A stretch of DNA of 38,199 bases from positions 11,887 through 50,085 of IMG/VR virus record IMGVR_UViG_3300030110_001274; one strand, 5' to 3'. This document shows, piece after piece, positions 3,122 through 38,008 of the stretch; within the stretch, counting starts at the first letter, position 1, and each line of letters opens with the position of its first letter. The position numbers and the translations under genes were made by a program. A model generated the notes under the pieces. That model did not search any database. It had not been told where the DNA came from and saw nothing but the letters and a program-made list of their open reading frames with translations. The DNA comes from a virus.

Positions 3122-3577
3122 ATGGCTTTTGTACTTAACGATAGAGTTAAACAGACTAGTACGTCTACTGGTACAGGAACAATTAACTTAACCGGAACTG
3201 AAACAGGTTTCGAAACTTTTGTAACTGGAATCGGTGATGGTAATAGTTGTTTTTATGCTATAGCAAACGATGGAACTTCTGAATTTGAGGTTGGTATTGG
3301 AACAGTAACTGATGCGGCTACTGATACACTTTCAAGAACTACAATTATCTCCTCTTCAAACTCAGATAATGCTGTTAACTTTTCAGCTGGAACAAAAACT
3401 GTTTTTTGTACATACCCTGCAAAAAGAGCACCATCTGCAGCGATGACAGCAACTACATATGTTAATACACATTCAGCAACAATATCTGATACACAAACAA
3501 TGGAGTCTGGAGTTTTAGCAGGACCAGTAACAGTATCAGGTAGTGTTACAGTAACAGGAACGTTAGTAATTATATAA
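3122..3577 (+). CDS. conserved phage tail/fibre-associated structural protein
   Basis: A 151 aa protein preceded by AAGGA. The N-terminal 100 residues follow a recognisable phage pattern: an LNDRVKQTSTSTGTG opening, a GDGNSCFYAI strand, FEVGIGTV, then TIISSSNSDNAVNFSAGTK and an FCTYPA ending. The C-terminal tail (about residues 115-151) is a run of alternating Val/Thr/Ser, likely strands. In related phages this family precedes tail-fibre genes and is thought to be a collar-like adaptor domain, but no activity is known. It is joined to the first Ig-like gene by a TAATG overlap. Confidence 0.6.
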   Translation: MAFVLNDRVKQTSTSTGTGTINLTGTETGFETFVTGIGDGNSCFYAIANDGTSEFEVGIGTVTDAATDTLSRTTIISSSNSDNAVNFSAGTKTVFCTYPAKRAPSAAMTATTYVNTHSATISDTQTMESGVLAGPVTVSGSVTVTGTLVII

Positions 3578-4371
3578 TGAGTCAAATAGAAGTAGATAAA
3601 ATAATACCTCAATCTGGAACAGCATTACAAGCTGGTGAAAATGGTGATACAATTACAGTACCATCAGGCGCTACTTTAAATTTAACAAACGCTACAGTTA
3701 CATATCCAGATGGTTCTGTGCAAAACGTAGATCTTGCAAACTCTTCTATTACAATAAACGGATCAGCTGTATCTTTAGGTGGATCTGTTACAATTGGTGA
3801 AACAAAACCAACTATAGGAAGTATTAATCCAAGTGTAATTGAAAACACACAAACAGCTGTAACAATAACAGGAACAAATTTTATATCCGTTCCTACTGTT
3901 GAAGCAATTAGTTCCACAGGTGCAATTACAAGAGCAGACACAGTTTCTTTTACAAGTGCAACAACGATTGTTGCTAACTTTACTTTAGCCGTTGATGGCA
4001 CTTATTTTATTAGAGTTGAGAATAATGATGGTAATGCGGTAAGGTCATCCTCTGCATTATTAACGGTTTCAGACGCTCCAGCGTGGACTACAGGTGCTGG
4101 ATCTTTAGGATCAAATGCTGCAGGATCTTCAATTTCATATACAGTAGCAGCAACGAATGCTACTTCTTTTGCAAAAGTATCAGGAACTTTTCCTGGTGGT
4201 GTATCTATTAATTCAGGTTCAGGTGTGATATCAGGTACAGAGAGTGGTGCAACTTCAGAGACTACATATAGTTTCACTATTCGAGCAACTGACGCTCAGG
4301 GTCAAACGGCGGACAGAGCGTTTAGTATAACAGTAACAGTAGGAATTAATAACTCAGGACAGTTTAACTAA
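3577..4371 (+). CDS. Ig-like tail fibre protein, cassette copy 1
   Basis: First gene of the first receptor-binding cassette (264 aa). The N-terminal 40 residues show the marine phage fibre signature IEVDKI.PQSGT...GENGDTITVPSGA. Residues ~75-168 look like an IPT/TIG-type Ig fold (KPTIGSINPSVIENT, ITGTNF, ending LLTVSDAP). Residues ~175-264 look like a cadherin-like 'putative Ig' domain (FPGGVSINSGSGVISGT, then YSFTIRATDAQGQTADR). Paralogues lie at 6844-7662 and 10050-11231. Residues 133-168 are identical in sequence to the same positions of copy 2. Likely a fibre shaft or spacer protein; receptor binding is inferred. Confidence 0.7.
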   Translation: MSQIEVDKIIPQSGTALQAGENGDTITVPSGATLNLTNATVTYPDGSVQNVDLANSSITINGSAVSLGGSVTIGETKPTIGSINPSVIENTQTAVTITGTNFISVPTVEAISSTGAITRADTVSFTSATTIVANFTLAVDGTYFIRVENNDGNAVRSSSALLTVSDAPAWTTGAGSLGSNAAGSSISYTVAATNATSFAKVSGTFPGGVSINSGSGVISGTESGATSETTYSFTIRATDAQGQTADRAFSITVTVGINNSGQFN

Positions 4372-5759
4372 TGGCTAATACTTTTATTACAAAAACAACT
4401 GGAACATCTACAAATGTAGATAAATGTACTTTTTCTGCTTGGGTAAAAAGAGGAAATTTAAGTAGCTCAGATCATATACTTATGGGTCAATATACTGATG
4501 CCAATAATAGAGGAAAAATTTTAATCAGTGATAATCAACTTGCTTATTTTCAAAAAACAGGTGGCAGTACAACTGCTAATGCTAAAGCAACTAGACAATT
4601 AAGAGATACTAATGCTTGGTATCATATTGTTCTTGCTTTTGATTCAACTCAATCAACAGCAGCAGATAGAATAAAATTTTATGTTAATGGTGTTCAAGAA
4701 ACAGTATTTTCTAATACAGATTATGGAGCTCAAAACGAAAATGTTAGAATTAATGAAAGTTCAGTACCTATATTTATAGGACAAGATGGAAATAGTGCAC
4801 ATTATTTTGATGGTCAGATGGCGCATGTTCACTTTGTAGATGGAACAGCATACCCAGCTTCTACATTTGGCGAAACAGATACTACGTCAGGAATATGGAA
4901 ACCAAAAACTAATCCAACAGTTACTTATGGAAATAATGGTTTCTTTTTAAAATTTGAAAACAATGGTAATTTAGATTTAGATAGTAGTGGAAACAACTTA
5001 ACATTTTCTACATCAGGAGCACTAACTCAAAATACAGATACACCTAGTAATAATTTTTCTACACTTAATCCATTATTATGTGGTACAGGAACTGGAAATG
5101 ATGCTGCAGTTCATACTGCTGGTAGTACTAGAGTAGATGTTGGAAATAATGTTTGGAGAACAGTTACAAGTTCAGTTGCTTTACATTCAGGCAAATGGTA
5201 TTTTGAAGGATTTGGTACATCACAAGCATCAGCATATCAACATTATGGAATTACTTCTATAAACAAATTTGAACAAGACCAAACTATGCCTGACAAAGAA
5301 ATTAACGAAGAACAAAATGGTTATGCTTATGGTTATTATGGAAACAACGGACAAATTTATTATTCAACACCATCAGCAAGATCAAATGGAGCTTATGGAT
5401 CATCTTATGGTGCATCTGATTATGTAGGTATATTTGTAGATTTAGATAACAATAAATTATATGTTTCTAAAAATGGTACACTTGCAAATAGTGGAACAGG
5501 ATATGATATTAATGCTGCTGGAAAACCATATTTATTAGCTATGTCAGTTTATGGTGCAAATGCACAAATTAATTTTGGTTCAGGAACATTTGGATATTCA
5601 GGAACAAGTTATGCTAAATTAACTGGTACAACATATGCAGATGCTAACGGACATGGAGTATTTAAATATTCACCTAATCAAGGCGGTGCTGCTAACTTTG
5701 ACAGTGCAGCTAAAAACTTTTACGCATTAAACACTAAAAACATAAAGGAGTTTGGATAA
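4371..5759 (+). CDS. LamG + SPRY-like lectin-type tail protein, cassette copy 1
   Basis: A 462 aa protein with two recognisable beta-sandwich parts. Residues 1-200 are concanavalin/LamG-like: FSAWVKRG near residue 20, NAWYHIVLAFD near 80, an NGVQ turn near 105 and HVHFVDGTAY near 153. Residues ~250-455 look like a SPRY/B30.2 fold, with GKWYFEG near 274 and VGIFVDLDNNKLYVSKNG around residues 355-372. LamG and SPRY domains bind sugars or peptides, so surface glycan recognition is the likely role. Both neighbours are joined by TAATG overlaps. Paralogues lie at 7662-8990 and 11231-12628; this copy differs from the other two at its C-terminus. Confidence 0.7.
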   Translation: MANTFITKTTGTSTNVDKCTFSAWVKRGNLSSSDHILMGQYTDANNRGKILISDNQLAYFQKTGGSTTANAKATRQLRDTNAWYHIVLAFDSTQSTAADRIKFYVNGVQETVFSNTDYGAQNENVRINESSVPIFIGQDGNSAHYFDGQMAHVHFVDGTAYPASTFGETDTTSGIWKPKTNPTVTYGNNGFFLKFENNGNLDLDSSGNNLTFSTSGALTQNTDTPSNNFSTLNPLLCGTGTGNDAAVHTAGSTRVDVGNNVWRTVTSSVALHSGKWYFEGFGTSQASAYQHYGITSINKFEQDQTMPDKEINEEQNGYAYGYYGNNGQIYYSTPSARSNGAYGSSYGASDYVGIFVDLDNNKLYVSKNGTLANSGTGYDINAAGKPYLLAMSVYGANAQINFGSGTFGYSGTSYAKLTGTTYADANGHGVFKYSPNQGGAANFDSAAKNFYALNTKNIKEFG

Positions 5760-6841
5760 TGGCCTATATAACTTTTCAACCTAGAGATCATTTTAGAACA
5801 GTGCTTTATACTGGTAATGCTTCTAATGATAAAGCAATTACATATTCAGAAAGTACAAATATGAAACCTGATTTTGTTTGGATTAAAAGTAGAGCAAATG
5901 ATTCTTACGATCATATGCTATTTGATAGAGTAAGACAAGGTTCTGATTCTCAACCTTTTGATATAAGAGCTAATCAAAATAATGCACAAAGCACAGATAC
6001 TTCAGGATTAAAAACTTTTGATACTAATGGTTTTACTTTAAACAATGGTGGTTATGTAAATCATGCATCAAACTTTGTTGCTTGGACTTGGAAAGCTACT
6101 AATTCAGCAGGTTCAGCAAATAGTGATGGTAGTATTAGTTCTACTGTAGCAGCTAACACATCAAGTGGATTTTCAATAGTTAAATATACTGGAACAGGTT
6201 CAAATGCCACTATTGGTCATGGTCTTAATACTGCACCAAAAGCCATATTTGTAAAAAAATATAGCACAACACAATCTTGGAGATGTGGTCATGTAGGACT
6301 AGCTGGTACAAGTGGTTGGGATTATGGAAATAATTTAAATAATAATAGTGAAAGATACGATAGCGCTACTTACTGGCAAGATACAGCACCAACAACTTCT
6401 GTATTTAGTGTTGGAACAGATACTGAAGTTAATGGAAATGGTGCTACTCATATTGCTTATTGTTTTAGCGAAGTTAAAGGTATGTGTAAAATAGGTCAAT
6501 ATATAGGAAATGGTAATTCAAATGGTCCGTTCATACATACTGGATTTCAACCTGCTTTTTTATTAATTAAAAAAAGATCAGGTGGAACAGCTAGTTGGGT
6601 TATAACAGATAACAGAAGAAGTAATTCTTTTAACCCACAAGATAGACTTTTATTTCCTGATAATGGTGATAACGAAGATGGTTCAGGAGAAACTTATCAT
6701 TGGGATTTTTTATCAAATGGAGTTAAAATTAGAACAACATCAAACAGTTATGGTAATGGTAGTGGTCAAGCATATACATACTTGGCTTACGCAGAATTTC
6801 CTTTTGTAGCATCAAATGGAGATCCAGTAACAGCAAGATAA
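5759..6841 (+). CDS. tail protein with three internal GxxP...K units, cassette copy 1 (DUF7483-like)
   Basis: A 360 aa protein of a family common beside marine phage fibre genes (I believe DUF7483; unverified). It contains three related units, each with a Pro-containing turn and an aromatic strand ending in Lys: MKPDFVWIK, APKAIFVKK and GFQPAFLLIKK. A TGTGSNATIGHGL motif precedes the second unit, and a cytoplasmic-type IAYCFSEVKG precedes the third. The last residues, FVASNGDPVTAR, match the ends of the two paralogues. It closes cassette 1; the next gene begins 2 bases after its stop, unlike the overlapping junctions inside the cassette. A spike or fibre tip role is inferred. Confidence 0.65.
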   Translation: MAYITFQPRDHFRTVLYTGNASNDKAITYSESTNMKPDFVWIKSRANDSYDHMLFDRVRQGSDSQPFDIRANQNNAQSTDTSGLKTFDTNGFTLNNGGYVNHASNFVAWTWKATNSAGSANSDGSISSTVAANTSSGFSIVKYTGTGSNATIGHGLNTAPKAIFVKKYSTTQSWRCGHVGLAGTSGWDYGNNLNNNSERYDSATYWQDTAPTTSVFSVGTDTEVNGNGATHIAYCFSEVKGMCKIGQYIGNGNSNGPFIHTGFQPAFLLIKKRSGGTASWVITDNRRSNSFNPQDRLLFPDNGDNEDGSGETYHWDFLSNGVKIRTTSNSYGNGSGQAYTYLAYAEFPFVASNGDPVTAR

Positions 6842-6843
6842 TT

Positions 6844-7662
6844 ATGAGTGAAGTAAAAGTAAATAAAGTAAGTCCACGATCCGGAACAGGAGTTCAGCTA
6901 GGAGATGCTGGCGATACAATAACTGTACCAAATAGTGCAAACTTAACAGTTGGCGGTACACTCACTGCAACAACAGGTGGTGGAGTTGCAAACGCTGCTT
7001 TAGCAAACTCATCTATTACAATTAATGGATCTGCAGTTTCTCTTGGAGGATCTGTAACTATAGGTGAAACTAAACCAACTATTTCAGGAATTAGTCCATC
7101 AACAATAGAAAACACAGCGACTAACGTTGTTATCTCAGGAACTAATTTTGTATCGGTTCCACAAGTTGATGCGATCAGTTCTACAGGAGCTGTTACCATA
7201 GCTAACTCAGTTTCATTTTCAAGCGCTACATCTATTACAGCAAACTTCACTTTAGCTGTTGATGGTACATATTTTATAAGAGTTGAGAACAACGATGGTA
7301 ATGCTGTTAGAAGTTCATCAGCACTTTTAACTGTATCTGATGCACCAGGCTGGACAACAGGAGCTGGTTCGTTAGGAACAATAGCTGGAAACTTTTCAGG
7401 AACAGTTGCAACAGTAGCTGCTTCTGGTGACACAGTAACTTTTAGTGAAACAACATCTGTATTAACAAATGCTTCTCAAGCTAATTGTACTTTAAATTCA
7501 TCAACAGGTGTGATATCAACAACTGACTTTGGTGGTGCGAGTACAACGCCAACAACTTACAATTTTACCTTAAGAGCTACGGATGCTCAGGGACAAACAG
7601 CTGATCGAGCATTTAGTCTGACATCTAGCTTTGGAGCAACTGGAGGAGCACAATTTAACTAA
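6844..7662 (+). CDS. Ig-like tail fibre protein, cassette copy 2 (apparent chimera of copies 1 and 3)
   Basis: A 272 aa paralogue of the protein at 3577-4371. The N-terminal part (VKVNKVSPRSGT, GDTITVP, SSITINGSAVSLGGSVTI) follows copy 1, including 36 identical residues at 133-168. The C-terminal part (GSLGTIAGNFSGTVATVAA, QANCTLNSSTGVI, DFGGAST, LTSSFGA) instead follows copy 3 at 10050-11231 and is unlike copy 1. The final 'RATDAQGQTADRAF' stretch again matches copy 1. It therefore looks like a mosaic of the other two. It starts 2 bases after the cassette 1 stop. The role is as for copy 1: Ig-like shaft or spacer. Confidence 0.7.
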   Translation: MSEVKVNKVSPRSGTGVQLGDAGDTITVPNSANLTVGGTLTATTGGGVANAALANSSITINGSAVSLGGSVTIGETKPTISGISPSTIENTATNVVISGTNFVSVPQVDAISSTGAVTIANSVSFSSATSITANFTLAVDGTYFIRVENNDGNAVRSSSALLTVSDAPGWTTGAGSLGTIAGNFSGTVATVAASGDTVTFSETTSVLTNASQANCTLNSSTGVISTTDFGGASTTPTTYNFTLRATDAQGQTADRAFSLTSSFGATGGAQFN

Positions 7663-8990
7663 TGGCAACTAGATTAACAAGAGCAAATACAGCAGCAACT
7701 AACAGACAAAAATTTACTTTTTCTTGTTGGTTAAAAAGAGGAAAATTAGGAGCACAAGAAAACTTTTTTACTTCAATACATAATGGTTCAAATGAATTTC
7801 AATTTAGATTTGATTCTGATGATGTATTAAGATGGGTTGGTTCCATTAGTGGTAGTGCAGCAGGATTAATAAAAACAAATAAAAAATTTAGGGATATTTC
7901 AGCTTGGTATAATATTGTTATAGTTGGAGACACAACACAAGCAACAAATATTAATAGATTAAAATTATATATTAATGGAGTTCAAATTCCTGATGGTGAT
8001 CTTAATGGTCCAGGTTATCCAGGTCAAAATACTAATTTTGGTTTTGGAACTACAGATTATAACTTTGTTTTTGGCACAAGTTCTGCAACAGGAACAAATG
8101 ATCCATTTACTGGATTATTAAGCCATTGTCATTTCGTAGATGGTGCAACTTATCAAGCATCTACTTTTGGTTCTACGGATGCTACTACTGGCGAATGGAA
8201 AATAAATACTTCGCCTACAATTACTGAGTATGGAGCTAATGGTTTCTTTATGTTTAAAAATGATGCAAGTATAAATGATGATAGTGGAAAAGGTAATAAC
8301 TTTACATTATCAGGAACAATAACTCAAACAGAAGATTGTCCTGATAACGTTTTTGCTGTTTTTAATAGTTCAACATATCATTTTGTAAATCAATGGCAAG
8401 CTAACACAAATGCTAACACAACTGTAACTGGAGGTAGTGGAAGTGCTTGGAAAACTATTTTGACTACAATAGGTGATTCAAGTGGAAAGTATTATTTTGA
8501 AGCTAAACTAATATCAAGTGGGAGTGGTGCTATTATAGGTGCAGTAGATATAGAAGATGCAAGACAAAATTCTTCAAGTTCATGGTACATTGGTCAAAGC
8601 TCTACAGGTCAAGGTTATCAAAATAATGGTGCCAAAAGTAATGGTGGTGCATCTTTTGGAGCAACTTTTGCAAATGATGATATTATTGGTGTTGCTATGG
8701 ATTTAGATAATTCTAAAATTTATTTTCATAAAAACGGAACTTATCAAGATTCAGGAAATCCAACATCAGGTTCAACAGGCACAGGTGCTATGAGTTTAAC
8801 AGCAGATAAAACTTATGCATTTGCTTTGACAAGTTATGCAGGAACTGTTTGGAATGCTAACTTAGGCAACGGTTTTTTTGGAACAACTCAAATATCTTCA
8901 GAAGGAACTAACGCATCAGGTATCGGTAAATTTGAGTATGATGTACCAGCAGGTTACTCAGCTCTATCAACTAAAGGATTAAACGAATAA
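7662..8990 (+). CDS. LamG + SPRY-like lectin-type tail protein, cassette copy 2
   Basis: A 442 aa paralogue of 4371-5759 with the same domain order. LamG-like region: FTFSCWLKRG near residue 20, SAWYNIVIVGD near 87, YINGVQ near 107, HFVDGATY near 156 followed by STFGSTDATTGEWK. SPRY-like region: GKYYFEAK near 274 and IIGVAMDLDNSKIYFHKNG around residues 340-358. The C-terminal FEYDVPAGYSALSTKGLN is shared with copy 3 and not with copy 1, so copies 2 and 3 are the closer pair here. TAATG overlaps join it to both neighbours. Likely a sugar- or receptor-binding tail component. Confidence 0.7.
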   Translation: MATRLTRANTAATNRQKFTFSCWLKRGKLGAQENFFTSIHNGSNEFQFRFDSDDVLRWVGSISGSAAGLIKTNKKFRDISAWYNIVIVGDTTQATNINRLKLYINGVQIPDGDLNGPGYPGQNTNFGFGTTDYNFVFGTSSATGTNDPFTGLLSHCHFVDGATYQASTFGSTDATTGEWKINTSPTITEYGANGFFMFKNDASINDDSGKGNNFTLSGTITQTEDCPDNVFAVFNSSTYHFVNQWQANTNANTTVTGGSGSAWKTILTTIGDSSGKYYFEAKLISSGSGAIIGAVDIEDARQNSSSSWYIGQSSTGQGYQNNGAKSNGGASFGATFANDDIIGVAMDLDNSKIYFHKNGTYQDSGNPTSGSTGTGAMSLTADKTYAFALTSYAGTVWNANLGNGFFGTTQISSEGTNASGIGKFEYDVPAGYSALSTKGLNE

Positions 8991-10048
8991 TGGCATACAC
9001 AACAATAGATAAAAGCACTCTACACTTTAATACTAAACTTTGGACAGGAACAGGAAGTTCTAATGCAATAACGGGCGTTGGATTTCAACCGGATTTCTGT
9101 TGGGTTAAAATGAGATCTGGTTCAGAAAATCATTTTTTAACCAACGCAATACAAGGTGCAACTAAAATTATTCAATCAGACACTACTGCTGCTGAACAAA
9201 CATCTTCAAATGGTATGACAGCTTTTAATGCTGATGGATTTACAGTTAATACAGATACTGGTTTTAATGGTAGTGGCGATAATTATGTTGCATGGAATTG
9301 GAAAGCAAATGGTGCTGGTTCTGCTAATACAGACGGAAGCATAAATACAATTGCAACTTCAGTAAATACAACAGCAGGTTTTTCAATTTGTAAATGGACT
9401 GGTACTGGTGCTAACGCAACAATTGGTCATGGTTTGGGAGTTGTTCCTCAAACTTATTTTGTTAAAAATTTAAGTGCTACAAATGATTGGAATGTTTATC
9501 ATCATAACATTGGTAATACTCATAGATTATTTTTAAATACCACAGCAGGAGATGAAAATAATGATAGTGCTTTTAATGATACATCACCAACATCTACAGT
9601 TTTTTCAGTAGGCACAAACACTAATGTTAACCAAAGTGGCTCTACTATGATTGCTTTTGTATTCGCAGAAAAAAAAGGATATTCAAAGTTTGGAACTTAT
9701 AATGGTAACGGAAATGCTAACGGCCCATATGTCTACACAGGATTTAAACCAGCTTTTGTTTTATGGAAAAGAAGTGATAGTGCTAATGGTTGGATTTTAA
9801 TGGATAACAAAAGACCAACTGTAAACAGTGTGTCATACGACTCTAATCCTGTAAATTATTTATTAGAAGCACAAAGTAATGGTGCTGAAGCATCAGCTTC
9901 AAGTTATTATGTAGATTATTTATCTAATGGTTTTAAAGTAAGAAATACAAATAATGTATTTAACAATAATGGTGCAAAATATTTATATTGGGCATTTGCA
10001 GCAGCACCATTAGTAGGAAGTAACAACGTGCCATGCACAGCGAGATAA
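8990..10048 (+). CDS. tail protein with three internal GxxP...K units, cassette copy 2 (DUF7483-like)
   Basis: A 352 aa paralogue of 5759-6841. The three units are GFQPDFCWVK (near residue 33), GLGVVPQTYFVK (near 150) and GFKPAFVLWK (near 255). A TGTGANATIGHGL motif and the stretch TSPTSTVFSVGTNTNVN are shared across the family. The end, LVGSNNVPCTAR, matches the other copies. The start is a TAATG overlap with the LamG/SPRY gene; the stop is followed after 1 base by the first gene of cassette 3. No catalytic motif is visible. Tail spike or receptor-contact role inferred from context. Confidence 0.65.
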   Translation: MAYTTIDKSTLHFNTKLWTGTGSSNAITGVGFQPDFCWVKMRSGSENHFLTNAIQGATKIIQSDTTAAEQTSSNGMTAFNADGFTVNTDTGFNGSGDNYVAWNWKANGAGSANTDGSINTIATSVNTTAGFSICKWTGTGANATIGHGLGVVPQTYFVKNLSATNDWNVYHHNIGNTHRLFLNTTAGDENNDSAFNDTSPTSTVFSVGTNTNVNQSGSTMIAFVFAEKKGYSKFGTYNGNGNANGPYVYTGFKPAFVLWKRSDSANGWILMDNKRPTVNSVSYDSNPVNYLLEAQSNGAEASASSYYVDYLSNGFKVRNTNNVFNNNGAKYLYWAFAAAPLVGSNNVPCTAR

Positions 10049-10049
10049 T

Positions 10050-11231
10050 ATGAGTAGTATACTAAAAGTAGATACAATACAGGATCAAAACGGAAACCTA
10101 ATCATCAGTAAAGATTCTGGTGGTGCAGGTTTTGAAGGTACATATTATTCTTCAGCTAGTCCTAAAGTATTTACAGTTAAAGTTATTACTAAAACTGCAG
10201 CTTCACCTTATCATAATGTTGGAAGTACTCTTGGTTATGAAATAAATGGTGTTGAAACACCTATTATAGATTTAAAAGGTCATGATACATCTAAACCTTA
10301 TTACTATAAATTTGATCAATCAGATGCTTCAAACGCAACTCATCCATTAAGATTTTATAACAACGTTGGTAAAACAACTGCATACACAACTGGAGTAACA
10401 ACTTCAGGTACGCCAGGAAATGCAGGAGCACACACTACGATTGCTATCGATAACACAACACCAAATATTTTATATTATCAATGTTCTTCACATTCTAATA
10501 TGGGGAACTTTATTAATCACAATTCTACAAAATTAAACACAGGTGCATTTTTAACAATGCCTGCAACAGACGGTACAAATGGTCAAGCTATAACGACTAA
10601 CGGATCAGGTGTATTATCTTTTGCAACTGTAGAAGAAACTAAACCTACTGTAGCTAACGTAGCTCAAACAATTGCACCGGCAACAGGAGTGTCATTTAAT
10701 ATTACGGGCACAAATTTTTCTGGAATACCAAGAGTAGAATTTATTAAAACAGACGGAGGAGTTACAAACGCAAATACAGTTAGTTTAAGTAGTGCCACAA
10801 GTTTAGCTGTAAATGCAACATTAGCATTAGGTTCATATTATGTAAGAGTAGAATTAGAATCTGGATTAGCTGGTAGAAGTACAAATGCAATTATTACTGC
10901 ATCTACAGCTCCTACTTGGACAACAAATGCAGGTTCTCTTGGAACAATAGCTGGTAACTTTTCAGGCACAGTCGCAACAGTTGCTGCAACTTCAGATTCA
11001 ACAATAGCTTATTCTGAGACAACAAACGTATTAACAAACAACTCACAAGCTAATTGTACTTTAAATTCTTCTACGGGTGTGATAACTACTAGTGACTTTG
11101 GTGGAGCAAGTACGGTACCAACAACTTATACATTTACTTTAAGAGCCACGGATGCCGAAGCACAAACTGTAGACAGAGTGTTTACATTAACAAGTTCATT
11201 TGGAGCAAGTGGATCAGGAGGATTCCAATAA
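10050..11231 (+). CDS. tail fibre protein with cupredoxin-like and Ig-like domains, cassette copy 3
   Basis: At 393 aa this is the longest of the three Ig-like paralogues because it carries an extra N-terminal domain. Residues ~38-155 look like a cupredoxin: a strand FTVKVITK, a histidine in ATHPLRF (His98), and a C-terminal loop YYQCSSHSNMG providing Cys145, His148 and Met151. The C-x2-H-x2-M spacing equals that of amicyanin, a type 1 copper protein. Residues ~195-285 are the IPT/TIG-like domain (EETKPTVANV, NITGTNFSGIP). The C-terminus shares TIAGNFSGTVATVAA and the LTSSFGA ending with copy 2. A fibre component is likely; copper binding is predicted from the ligands alone. Confidence 0.7.
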   Translation: MSSILKVDTIQDQNGNLIISKDSGGAGFEGTYYSSASPKVFTVKVITKTAASPYHNVGSTLGYEINGVETPIIDLKGHDTSKPYYYKFDQSDASNATHPLRFYNNVGKTTAYTTGVTTSGTPGNAGAHTTIAIDNTTPNILYYQCSSHSNMGNFINHNSTKLNTGAFLTMPATDGTNGQAITTNGSGVLSFATVEETKPTVANVAQTIAPATGVSFNITGTNFSGIPRVEFIKTDGGVTNANTVSLSSATSLAVNATLALGSYYVRVELESGLAGRSTNAIITASTAPTWTTNAGSLGTIAGNFSGTVATVAATSDSTIAYSETTNVLTNNSQANCTLNSSTGVITTSDFGGASTVPTTYTFTLRATDAEAQTVDRVFTLTSSFGASGSGGFQ

Positions 11232-12628
11232 TGCCTAGTACATATTTACATAAAAATCAGGGAACACCAACAAATGCAAAAAAATTTACAGTATCTTTCT
11301 GGTTTAAAAGAGGTATCATTAGTACAAGTTCAACTAACTATACAACAAGATTATTTCAAGGTTACAAAGATGGTAATGATAGACTCTATGTAAAACTTGA
11401 TAATGATAATAAACTTATGATTTTCGCAGCAGAAGGTGGAACTGACAGAGTAAATTGGGTAACAAAAAGACAATTTGAGGATCCGAATGCTTGGTATAAT
11501 CTGGTATTAGTAGGAGACTCAACAGAATCAACAGAAGCTGATAGAATAAAAATGTATATTAATGGAGTTAATATAGATAGCTTAGGTGGATATACAAAAA
11601 ATACTACTAACATAACTCAAAATATGGATTGGGGTATTCAATTAGCACAAACTAATAATACTTTTACAATCTCAGGAAATGAAAGTCATGGTGAATTATT
11701 TGATGGATGTATATCACATTTTCATTATATAGATGGAACAGCTTACCAAGCATCTACTTTTGGTTCAACAGACGCAACGACTGGTGAATGGAAAATAAAC
11801 GTCAATCCTACTGTAACTTATGGAACTAATGGTTTCTTAATCTTAAAAGATGGAAACACAATTACAGACCAATCAGCTAATTCTAATAATTGGGCGATAG
11901 GTGCAGGATCACTTTTAGATAATAAAGATAGTCCAAGTAATAACTTTTGTACTTTAAATTCTTTAGACAAAGCACCAATGTCTAATGATCCTTTACAAAA
12001 CAAAATGTTTAATGGTAATCTTTATGTAAGTTTAGATAGCAACATTAAAAATTTAGCAAGAGGCACTTTAGGTGTAACTGCTGGTAAATGGTATTGGGAA
12101 GCTAAAGTAGAAACTAAAGGAAAAGGATTTTACGGAATTTGTAATAGACTCGCTCTTGAAAGCACTTCTGCTCCACATGATAATAGTGCTTACACAGGTA
12201 TATATTATTATGACGCAACACCAGACTTTAGATACTATTCTGGTGCAACAAGCACAACAGGTATAGCAAGTGTTGCTAATGGGGATATTTTAGGTTTTGC
12301 ACTAGATATGGATAACAAAGCACTTTATATTCATAAAAACGGAACATATATGAATAGTGGAGATCCTACTTCAGGTTCATCTAAAACAGGTGCTATTAGT
12401 GAATTGTTTTCTTATTCTACTAACTGGGCAGACTATGGTGAAGTATTTCCTTCTTTTTATGTTTCATCAACTTCAGGAGCCGGTGCAGCATCATTTAACT
12501 TTGGTAATGGATTTTATAGAACAACTGCTGTATCATCAGCACAAAACCCTGATGATGGAATAGGTGTATTCGAGTATGATGTACCTGCTAATTATAGAGC
12601 AATAACAACTAAAGGATTAAACGCATAA
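11231..12628 (+). CDS. LamG + SPRY-like lectin-type tail protein, cassette copy 3
   Basis: A 465 aa paralogue of 4371-5759 and 7662-8990. LamG-like region: FTVSFWFKRG near residue 20, NAWYNLVLVGDSTEST near 93, YINGV near 115, HFHYIDGTAY near 163. SPRY-like region: GKWYWEAKVE near 284 and ILGFALDMDNKALYIHKNG around 355-374, then MNSGDPTSGS. It ends in FEYDVPANYRAITTKGLN like copy 2. TAATG overlaps join both neighbours. It is likely to bind a surface glycan or protein of the host; the variable loops between the conserved strands are where the three copies differ most. Confidence 0.7.
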   Translation: MPSTYLHKNQGTPTNAKKFTVSFWFKRGIISTSSTNYTTRLFQGYKDGNDRLYVKLDNDNKLMIFAAEGGTDRVNWVTKRQFEDPNAWYNLVLVGDSTESTEADRIKMYINGVNIDSLGGYTKNTTNITQNMDWGIQLAQTNNTFTISGNESHGELFDGCISHFHYIDGTAYQASTFGSTDATTGEWKINVNPTVTYGTNGFLILKDGNTITDQSANSNNWAIGAGSLLDNKDSPSNNFCTLNSLDKAPMSNDPLQNKMFNGNLYVSLDSNIKNLARGTLGVTAGKWYWEAKVETKGKGFYGICNRLALESTSAPHDNSAYTGIYYYDATPDFRYYSGATSTTGIASVANGDILGFALDMDNKALYIHKNGTYMNSGDPTSGSSKTGAISELFSYSTNWADYGEVFPSFYVSSTSGAGAASFNFGNGFYRTTAVSSAQNPDDGIGVFEYDVPANYRAITTKGLNA

Positions 12629-13680
12629 TGGCTTATACTACAGTTAATAAATCTACAGATTATTTTAATACTAAACTTTATACAGGAACAGGAAGCACTA
12701 ACGCACAGACAGGCATAGGTTTTCAGCCTGATTGGGTCTGGATTCAAAACAGAGGAGGAACATACGCAAACATATCTGTGGACTCTGTAAGAGGAGCAAC
12801 AAAATTGCTTGAGCCACAAGGAACAGGACAAGAAGCAACAGTAGCAAATTCATTAACAAGTTTTGACTCTGATGGATTCACTCTTGGAGCAGATAGTAGT
12901 AATTATTGTAATAAAAGTTCAAATAATTACGTTGCTTGGAATTGGAGAGCAGGTGGTGCAGCTTCAGCTAATTCATCAGGCACTATAAGTTCAAGTGTAT
13001 CTGTAAATACAACAGCAGGATTTAGTGTTGTTTCTTATACAGGTACTGGTTCAGCGGGTGCAACAGTAGGTCATGGTTTAGGCGTAGCGCCTGCAATGAT
13101 AATTGAAAAAGCAAGAACTGTTACAGATGATTGGTTAATTTATCATCAATCAATTGGAAATACACATGGCCTGGCGTTAAATAACACAACTGCTCAAACT
13201 GATAGTGATACTTATTTTAATGATACTTCACCAACTTCAACTGTATTTAGTTTAGGTAATAATGGAAAAGTTAATACAAATGGTGGAACTCATATAGCTT
13301 ACTGCTTTGCAGAAAAAAAAGGGTTTTCAAGATTTGGACAATATCTTGGTAATGGTAATACCGATGGTACATTTGTTTATACTGGTTTTAGACCAGCTTT
13401 TGTTTTGGTAAAAAAATATTCTGCTACTGAAAGTTGGCAAATAACAGACCACCCAAGAGATGTAAATGTAGCTCCAAATTATGCAAGAGTTTTAGCAAAT
13501 GATGGTTCTTCTGCAGAAGCTACAAATACTACTTGGGCTAAAATACAAAAAGCTTCTAATGGTTTTAAATTATGTCATACCGATGGAGTTATTAATGCCT
13601 CAGGTTCAACATACATCTATATGGCATTTGCAGATGCACCATTAGTTGGATCAAATGATGAGCCATGTAAGGCAAGGTAA
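12628..13680 (+). CDS. tail protein with three internal GxxP...K units, cassette copy 3 (DUF7483-like)
   Basis: A 350 aa paralogue closing cassette 3. The units are GFQPDWVWIQ (residues ~31-40), GLGVAPAMIIEK (~150-161) and GFRPAFVLVKK (~253-263), with YTGTGS before the first two. The block TSPTSTVFSLG and the IAYCFAEKKGFS segment are shared with the other copies, and it ends LVGSNDEPCKAR. The first unit has Gln where the others have Lys, and the second has Glu-Lys. Its stop is followed by a 3-base gap before the 22-residue-repeat gene. Tail tip or spike function is inferred. Confidence 0.65.
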   Translation: MAYTTVNKSTDYFNTKLYTGTGSTNAQTGIGFQPDWVWIQNRGGTYANISVDSVRGATKLLEPQGTGQEATVANSLTSFDSDGFTLGADSSNYCNKSSNNYVAWNWRAGGAASANSSGTISSSVSVNTTAGFSVVSYTGTGSAGATVGHGLGVAPAMIIEKARTVTDDWLIYHQSIGNTHGLALNNTTAQTDSDTYFNDTSPTSTVFSLGNNGKVNTNGGTHIAYCFAEKKGFSRFGQYLGNGNTDGTFVYTGFRPAFVLVKKYSATESWQITDHPRDVNVAPNYARVLANDGSSAEATNTTWAKIQKASNGFKLCHTDGVINASGSTYIYMAFADAPLVGSNDEPCKAR

Positions 13681-37357: not shown

Positions 37358-38008
37358 ATGGCTTATTTAAATGCAAATATCCCTTTACAATACGCACAAA
37401 TAAGGAGAGAATACCTTTATGACTGTAAAAAACATCATGGAGAAGTTGAAGACTGTATTATCTTCGGTATTACATCGTTGTCAGGCAGGGCTATCTTATT
37501 TCATTCAATTATGGAAAACGGTGCTGTCTTCTATCGTTTACCGATATCTGCGTTTATTCAAAGAGGTTTTGACCCAAAAGAAGTACCTGAATATAGACTT
37601 GATGAGTTACAGCTTTGGAATTGTTTTAGTTATTATCCTGCTGTTACTACTTGGGATTTATTGGGCGGTGTAAACGGCAAATTCTTTGGCAAAGACAAAA
37701 AATTTCACTCAGGTAAGTATATATTCACAGTTGACTGGGGACACCCAGATGCTAATATACTAAATTCTGATCATTCAGAGATTCCGCATGAACATAAATG
37801 CGCACATATCATAGCCCTAAATGATGGGAACTATGCAGCACAACCTAACAATCGTATAATTTGGGACCTACCTTCTTTTACAGTTAAAGATGAGGTGCCA
37901 GATTGGAAAGTTCAAACTACAGAGTGGAGTGTAGAGGACACAGGTAAATGGATAACAGAAGATTCTGATAGATTCTTCTATGATATTAAGGAGAAAAAAA
38001 ATGATTAA
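37358..38008 (+). CDS. widespread conserved phage protein, unassigned
   Basis: A 216 aa protein in a family found beside phage replication genes: MAYLNANIPLQYAQIRREYL, then DCIIFGITSLSGRAILFH, NGAVFYRLPISAF, LWNCFSYYPAVTTWDLL, IFTVDWGHPD and the Asn/Pro-rich GNYAAQPNNRI. The conservation of Trp, His and Asp residues hints at a real activity, but none is known to me and no catalytic set is obvious. It follows the polymerase after 9 bases with a GAGG ribosome binding site. The C-terminus is lysine-rich and overlaps the next small gene by 8 bases. Confidence 0.65.
   Translation: MAYLNANIPLQYAQIRREYLYDCKKHHGEVEDCIIFGITSLSGRAILFHSIMENGAVFYRLPISAFIQRGFDPKEVPEYRLDELQLWNCFSYYPAVTTWDLLGGVNGKFFGKDKKFHSGKYIFTVDWGHPDANILNSDHSEIPHEHKCAHIIALNDGNYAAQPNNRIIWDLPSFTVKDEVPDWKVQTTEWSVEDTGKWITEDSDRFFYDIKEKKND

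Follow-up and report, generated by a model that had tools for sequence, protein, structure and literature searches.

Protein 10050–11231 and its gene neighbourhood

The window analysed here is a 38,199-nucleotide stretch (positions 11,887 to 50,085) of the 50,085-base IMG/VR record IMGVR_UViG_3300030110_001274, which derives from a marine, pelagiphage-like virus related to the HTVC023P-type pelagiphages. The DNA polymerase of the record shares 79% identity with that of phage 023Pt_psg01 and 53–56% with those of HTVC023P and HTVC027P. Among the tail and virion genes of the window lies an open reading frame for a 393-residue protein with the following features.

10050..11231, + strand: ORF of the tail-fibre-type protein (393 aa), consisting of a short N-terminus, a cupredoxin-like domain, a linker and two Ig-like domains
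10050..10157, + strand: N-terminal segment MSSILKVDTIQDQNGNLIISKD... of 36 residues, present in close relatives and elsewhere swapped for unrelated N-termini
10158..10517, + strand: cupredoxin-like domain, residues 37–156, delineated by alignment, AlphaFold2, fold search and profile–profile comparison
10341..10343, + strand: codon of His98, predicted first His ligand, within THPLRF
10482..10484, + strand: codon of Cys145, predicted thiolate ligand and sole Cys of the domain
10491..10493, + strand: codon of His148, predicted second His ligand
10500..10502, + strand: codon of Met151, predicted axial ligand at the amicyanin spacing
10518..10640, + strand: linker, the terminal part of which, NTGAFLTMPATDGTNGQAITTNGSGVLSFAT, recurs downstream of the domain in fibre homologues
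10641..11228, + strand: two Ig-like domains, common to the paralogues at 3577–4371 and 6844–7662

The assignment to tail fibres, already made in an earlier note on this DNA, is borne out by PHROG matches of the protein (phrog_30742, tail fiber, E 7.6e-24; phrog_677, baseplate wedge tail fiber connector, E 4.6e-6), by isolate homologues annotated as tail fibre and by the location in the virion gene block. No export signal is visible in the 393 residues. The region 3577–13680 comprises three tandem copies of a three-gene cassette that encodes an Ig-like, a LamG/SPRY-type and a DUF7483 protein, with 34–63% protein identity between the copies. As the earlier note had observed, the extra domain is present only in the third Ig-like protein of this repeat: the two paralogues align solely with its C-terminal part, from residue ~157–177, and a search with the domain profile returned a single copy in the entire record. 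By comparison, phage 023Pt_psg01 carries one divergent copy, located towards the N-terminal end of the 366-residue open frame URG13105.1, with the C-x2-H-x2-M loop retained, and the domain was not found in HTVC023P or HTVC027P.

The four residues named in the earlier note, His98 and the Cys145, His148 and Met151 of a C-x2-H-x2-M loop, are read with their codons directly in the ORF; the other Cys of the protein is residue 336. The loop has the spacing of the amicyanin ligands His53, Cys92, His95 and Met98 (PMC12723479), again in agreement with that note. The motif occurs once across the window ORFs of at least 100 residues, with 0.013 occurrences expected from composition, and the domain that contains it, at ~120 residues, is much bigger than the motif.

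Predicted fold and relation to known cupredoxins

Single-sequence searches with the window domain gave no Pfam or NCBIfam match and no PDB sequence match; DUF4766 and an At5g54830-like domain appeared as weak Pfam matches under the cut-off and were rejected. From an alignment of 80 sequences (the window domain and 79 homologues), AlphaFold2 predicted an all-beta sandwich of nine strands, the cupredoxin definition being a Greek-key beta-sandwich of 7–8 strands, with a mean pLDDT of 89.2, 92–98 in the core and 87.8–89.2 across the five models. In the model numbering, the ligands are residues 78, 125, 128 and 131 and the relevant strands are 64–69, 80–83, 120–125 and 133–137. Thus His98 lies in a loop preceding a strand, Cys145 terminates the penultimate strand, and His148 and Met151 lie in the loop preceding the last strand, which, as modelled, is the cupredoxin arrangement. 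A full-length AlphaFold2 run with 27 sequences modelled the two Ig-like beta domains well (~196–383) and the cupredoxin region poorly (pLDDT ~30), so that the fold call depends on the deeper alignment of the domain.

Cupredoxins make up almost all of the top PDB fold matches of the model. First among them is the N-terminal cupredoxin domain of a three-domain nitrite reductase (2dv6; rmsd 3.2 over 100 residues), with a VIA Z of 8.4 that lies near the range of common arrangements; laccases and rusticyanin come next, and amicyanin and plastocyanin rank lower. Foldseek against PDB chains gave weak E-values, the best being 4.9e-3. Given these modest scores, the case is not built on the fold search alone. 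Among the BFVD models, dozens of fibre and baseplate proteins from phages show the same predicted fold. The fold is also found there in two proteins of pithovirus- or marseillevirus-like genomes named 'beta-sandwich protein' (A0A481Z6J5 and A0A481YWX9).

Profile–profile comparison provides a further line of evidence. When aligned with sequences from marine genomes that match PF00127, the family places His98, Cys145 and His148 in register with the His, Cys and His of plastocyanin, with pairwise E-values of 1e-9 for the widened family profile and 1.5e-5 for A2. The PF00127 cut-off is 21.2 bits; divergent phage copies score 13–18 bits and the window domain has no match. Two Prochlorococcus proteins of 148 residues exceed this cut-off and are also recovered by a genome-wide search with the phage-domain profile (E 7e-5 and 9.5e-5). 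Both (L275 and L276) have a signal-peptide-like N-terminus, an HPFYI segment and a CSPHxxFGM loop, and represent a cellular cupredoxin type near the phage module.

The earlier note had proposed structure prediction as a way to see whether the four residues converge. Their strand and loop positions in the model, together with the profile register, suggest that they would. The residue after the first His is Pro99 in the window domain, and 94 of 103 copies have a Pro there, at a position occupied by Asn54 in amicyanin and Ser86 in rusticyanin; Asn54 tunes the amicyanin site (PMC12723479). Asn or Ser at this position is a tuning residue and not a ligand, and hence does not strictly define type 1 copper cupredoxins.

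That the motif arose by chance in a non-cupredoxin fold has in its favour the empty single-sequence Pfam and PDB searches. We regard this explanation as having a negligible probability in view of the fold search, the profile alignment, the low expected count and the family-wide conservation of the ligands. Structure prediction, fold search, profile–profile alignment and ligand conservation together give good support to a cupredoxin fold and to a complete ligand set of the type 1 kind.

Conservation of the ligands and mobility of the module

The ligands stand out in every alignment of the family. In the first, of 23 sequences, they are among eight invariant columns; across 103 copies with less than 85% identity, Met151, His148 and Gly152 are conserved in 100% and His98 and Cys145 in 99%, which exceeds nearly all hydrophobic core positions. 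Because one search pattern behind the viral-contig loci touches Cys and His, loci in genome contigs were examined separately, using only the ligand-free pattern Y[KR]FD[QV][SA]D[ASN][ST]. All 30 of the loci found in this way keep C-x2-H-x2-M; these candidates had also passed tblastn against the query, which leaves some bias. The 15 matching records hold 27 copies, of which 22 retain the ligand set; in two of these 22 the loop is C-x2-H-x3-M, and among relatives it takes the forms C-x2-H-x2, x3 or x4-M. The remaining five copies lie in very large ORFs (one annotated as gp7 baseplate wedge) and are devoid of C-x2-H-x2-M; one keeps the His, followed by an insertion that makes it unjudgeable, and the others have different residues at the ligand positions. 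Such joint retention or joint loss is as predicted for a metal site. The divergent copies that have lost the metal ligands, L198 (in the same ORF as L067), L212, L214 and L218, lie in very large cyanophage ORFs and suggest that the fold has been reused there without metal.

These patterns bear on the idea that phages never load the domain with metal and conserve its ligand residues for the sake of folding. It would accord with the Pro where Asn usually follows the first His, and with the low copper content of the cytoplasm in which phage proteins fold. By comparison, residues serving only the fold would hardly be more conserved than nearly all of the hydrophobic core, nor be lost jointly while other hallmarks stay, and we consider this idea very improbable.

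The earlier note had suggested a search for the domain in other phage fibres, and it recurs in hundreds of fibre and baseplate loci of marine phages. A 126-residue domain query retrieved 62 close relatives in viral contigs, and one scan with the family profile confirmed at least 550 loci in viral contigs, alongside 30 loci in prokaryote genome contigs, part of which probably stem from phages or prophages. Thirty records of the phage collection contain the domain. Their hosts include Prochlorococcus, Synechococcus, Pelagibacter and Methylophilales, and the annotation is mostly that of a tail fibre, a baseplate wedge or a virion structural protein; the carriers are tail-fibre and baseplate proteins of cyanophages, pelagiphages and OM43 phages. 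The domain was also observed in genome contigs of marine Bacteroidetes and Actinomarina (L175, L176, L177 and L178–L181), with the Bacteroidetes copies in very long ORFs.

The domain is found behind many unrelated fibre N-termini, and relatives of the window protein retain the Ig part behind N-termini that do not contain it. Judged from these sequence comparisons, the cupredoxin-like domain is a mobile, shuffled module of marine phage fibre and baseplate proteins. The cupredoxin fold and the type 1 site are themselves classic. A literature search, with most subscription papers outside its reach, found no cupredoxin described as a tail-fibre or baseplate module of phages, and the wide occurrence of such a module in the fibres of marine phages seems not to have been reported.

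Putative metal loading and role in the fibre

From the ligand set, the domain probably binds metal. Cupredoxin sites of the Cys-His2-Met kind contain copper far more often than any other metal. The earlier note had claimed a type 1 copper site, of which the fold and the ligand set are supported by several lines of evidence; copper itself is a strong inference. Our preferred reading, to which we assign a probability of roughly 60%, is that a type-1-copper-like cupredoxin serves as a mobile fibre module that is loaded with metal outside the cytoplasm and acts as a surface module for host contact, perhaps also for stability. The protein would assemble in the cytoplasm, a compartment with practically no free copper, and the site would probably be filled, most likely with copper, once the virion is in the periplasm or in seawater. 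Filling outside the cytoplasm is proposed on account of this copper-poor assembly and the lack of a visible export signal. The metal-loaded domain may then form a rigid, metal-locked module on the fibre surface. Docking to a host partner is a reasonable guess given the likely shared ancestry with extracellular cupredoxins of the hosts.

The site may instead be purely structural, with copper or another soft metal (Zn, Cu(I)) stapling the sandwich for survival in seawater and the domain acting as a spacer with no host contact. The domain sits near the N-terminus, ahead of Ig-like domains that may be closer to the tip, some baseplate copies retain the sequence hallmarks of the fold without the ligands, and metal-stapled fibres have a precedent in the iron of the T4 gp37 tip (PMC11705849). 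However, many ocean phage fibres manage without the domain, and a full Cys-His2-Met set is odd for mere stability, for which simpler sites exist; we therefore hold a purely structural site to be unlikely, though worth serious consideration.

A working redox centre that serves arrival sensing or ejection, either by alternating between Cu(I) and Cu(II) or by exchanging electrons with a partner on the host surface, would account for the conservation of the complete type-1 ligand set, axial Met included. Cupredoxins in general carry electrons, and the loop length varies among the relatives as it does among electron-carrying cupredoxins. However, the structural block of the phage contains no recognisable redox partner, which makes an electron-carrier role unlikely, and we know of no pathway of redox sensing or ejection through a phage fibre. 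Overall, we give a redox centre little credence. The window also contains, at 37358–38008, a gene assigned to the 'ferredoxin' family of PHROG (phrog_3704, E 1.2e-73) that adjoins the DNA polymerase gene and is possibly an auxiliary metabolic gene; it was rejected as the redox partner because it sits beside the replication genes, outside the virion block.

The preferred surface module could also have a more specific use. T4 gp37 and other HxH fibres bind iron, which underlies the Ferrojan or Trojan horse hypothesis (PMC11705849). In a copper counterpart of this hypothesis, copper-loaded cupredoxin modules of the fibre would dock to copper-uptake or cupredoxin-binding proteins of the host surface; we consider such docking a speculative and rather doubtful extension. 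If it were true, released virions would also be a pool of copper ligands in seawater. An HxH iron fibre was rejected for the window domain, the His residues of which, at 55, 78, 98, 128, 148 and 157, form no HxH pair. Should copper occupy the site, a class of virions abundant in the ocean would carry seemingly uncatalogued metalloprotein domains (at least 550 loci), and copper chemistry would have a testable link with phage adsorption. For 30 phage records, including those of cultured cyanophages and pelagiphages, the entry 'Tail fiber protein' or 'hypothetical protein' would then give way to a definite domain.

Comparison with known systems places the phage domain near several cupredoxins. 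Like amicyanin, plastocyanin and pseudoazurin (PF00127), it has the predicted fold and the ligand order, with a His...Cys-x2-His-x2-Met spacing identical to that of amicyanin. It differs from all three in that it is part of a fibre and not a free periplasmic electron carrier, is longer (~120 residues) and lies under PF00127 detection, and it differs from amicyanin in having Pro in place of Asn after the first His. The N-terminal domain of the Hyphomicrobium three-domain nitrite reductase (2dv6, 6tfd), the best structural match, is likewise a cupredoxin module within a larger protein, whereas there it belongs to an enzyme and has a redox role, and the identity is only 15–18%. The secreted cupredoxin of Prochlorococcus matches PF00127 as well as the phage-domain profile and shares the His-Pro and a GTPGTQ-like segment with the phage domain, whereas it is a single domain with a hydrophobic, signal-peptide-like N-terminus and a loop of plastocyanin-type length, C-x2-H-x4-M. 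Finally, the iron fibres of T4 gp37 resemble the present case in having metal, here predicted, in a phage tail fibre and a proposed role in host attachment (PMC11705849). In T4 gp37 the metal is iron, held by octahedral HxH sites of a trimeric fibre, whereas the domain described here would hold its metal in a single-chain predicted cupredoxin site.
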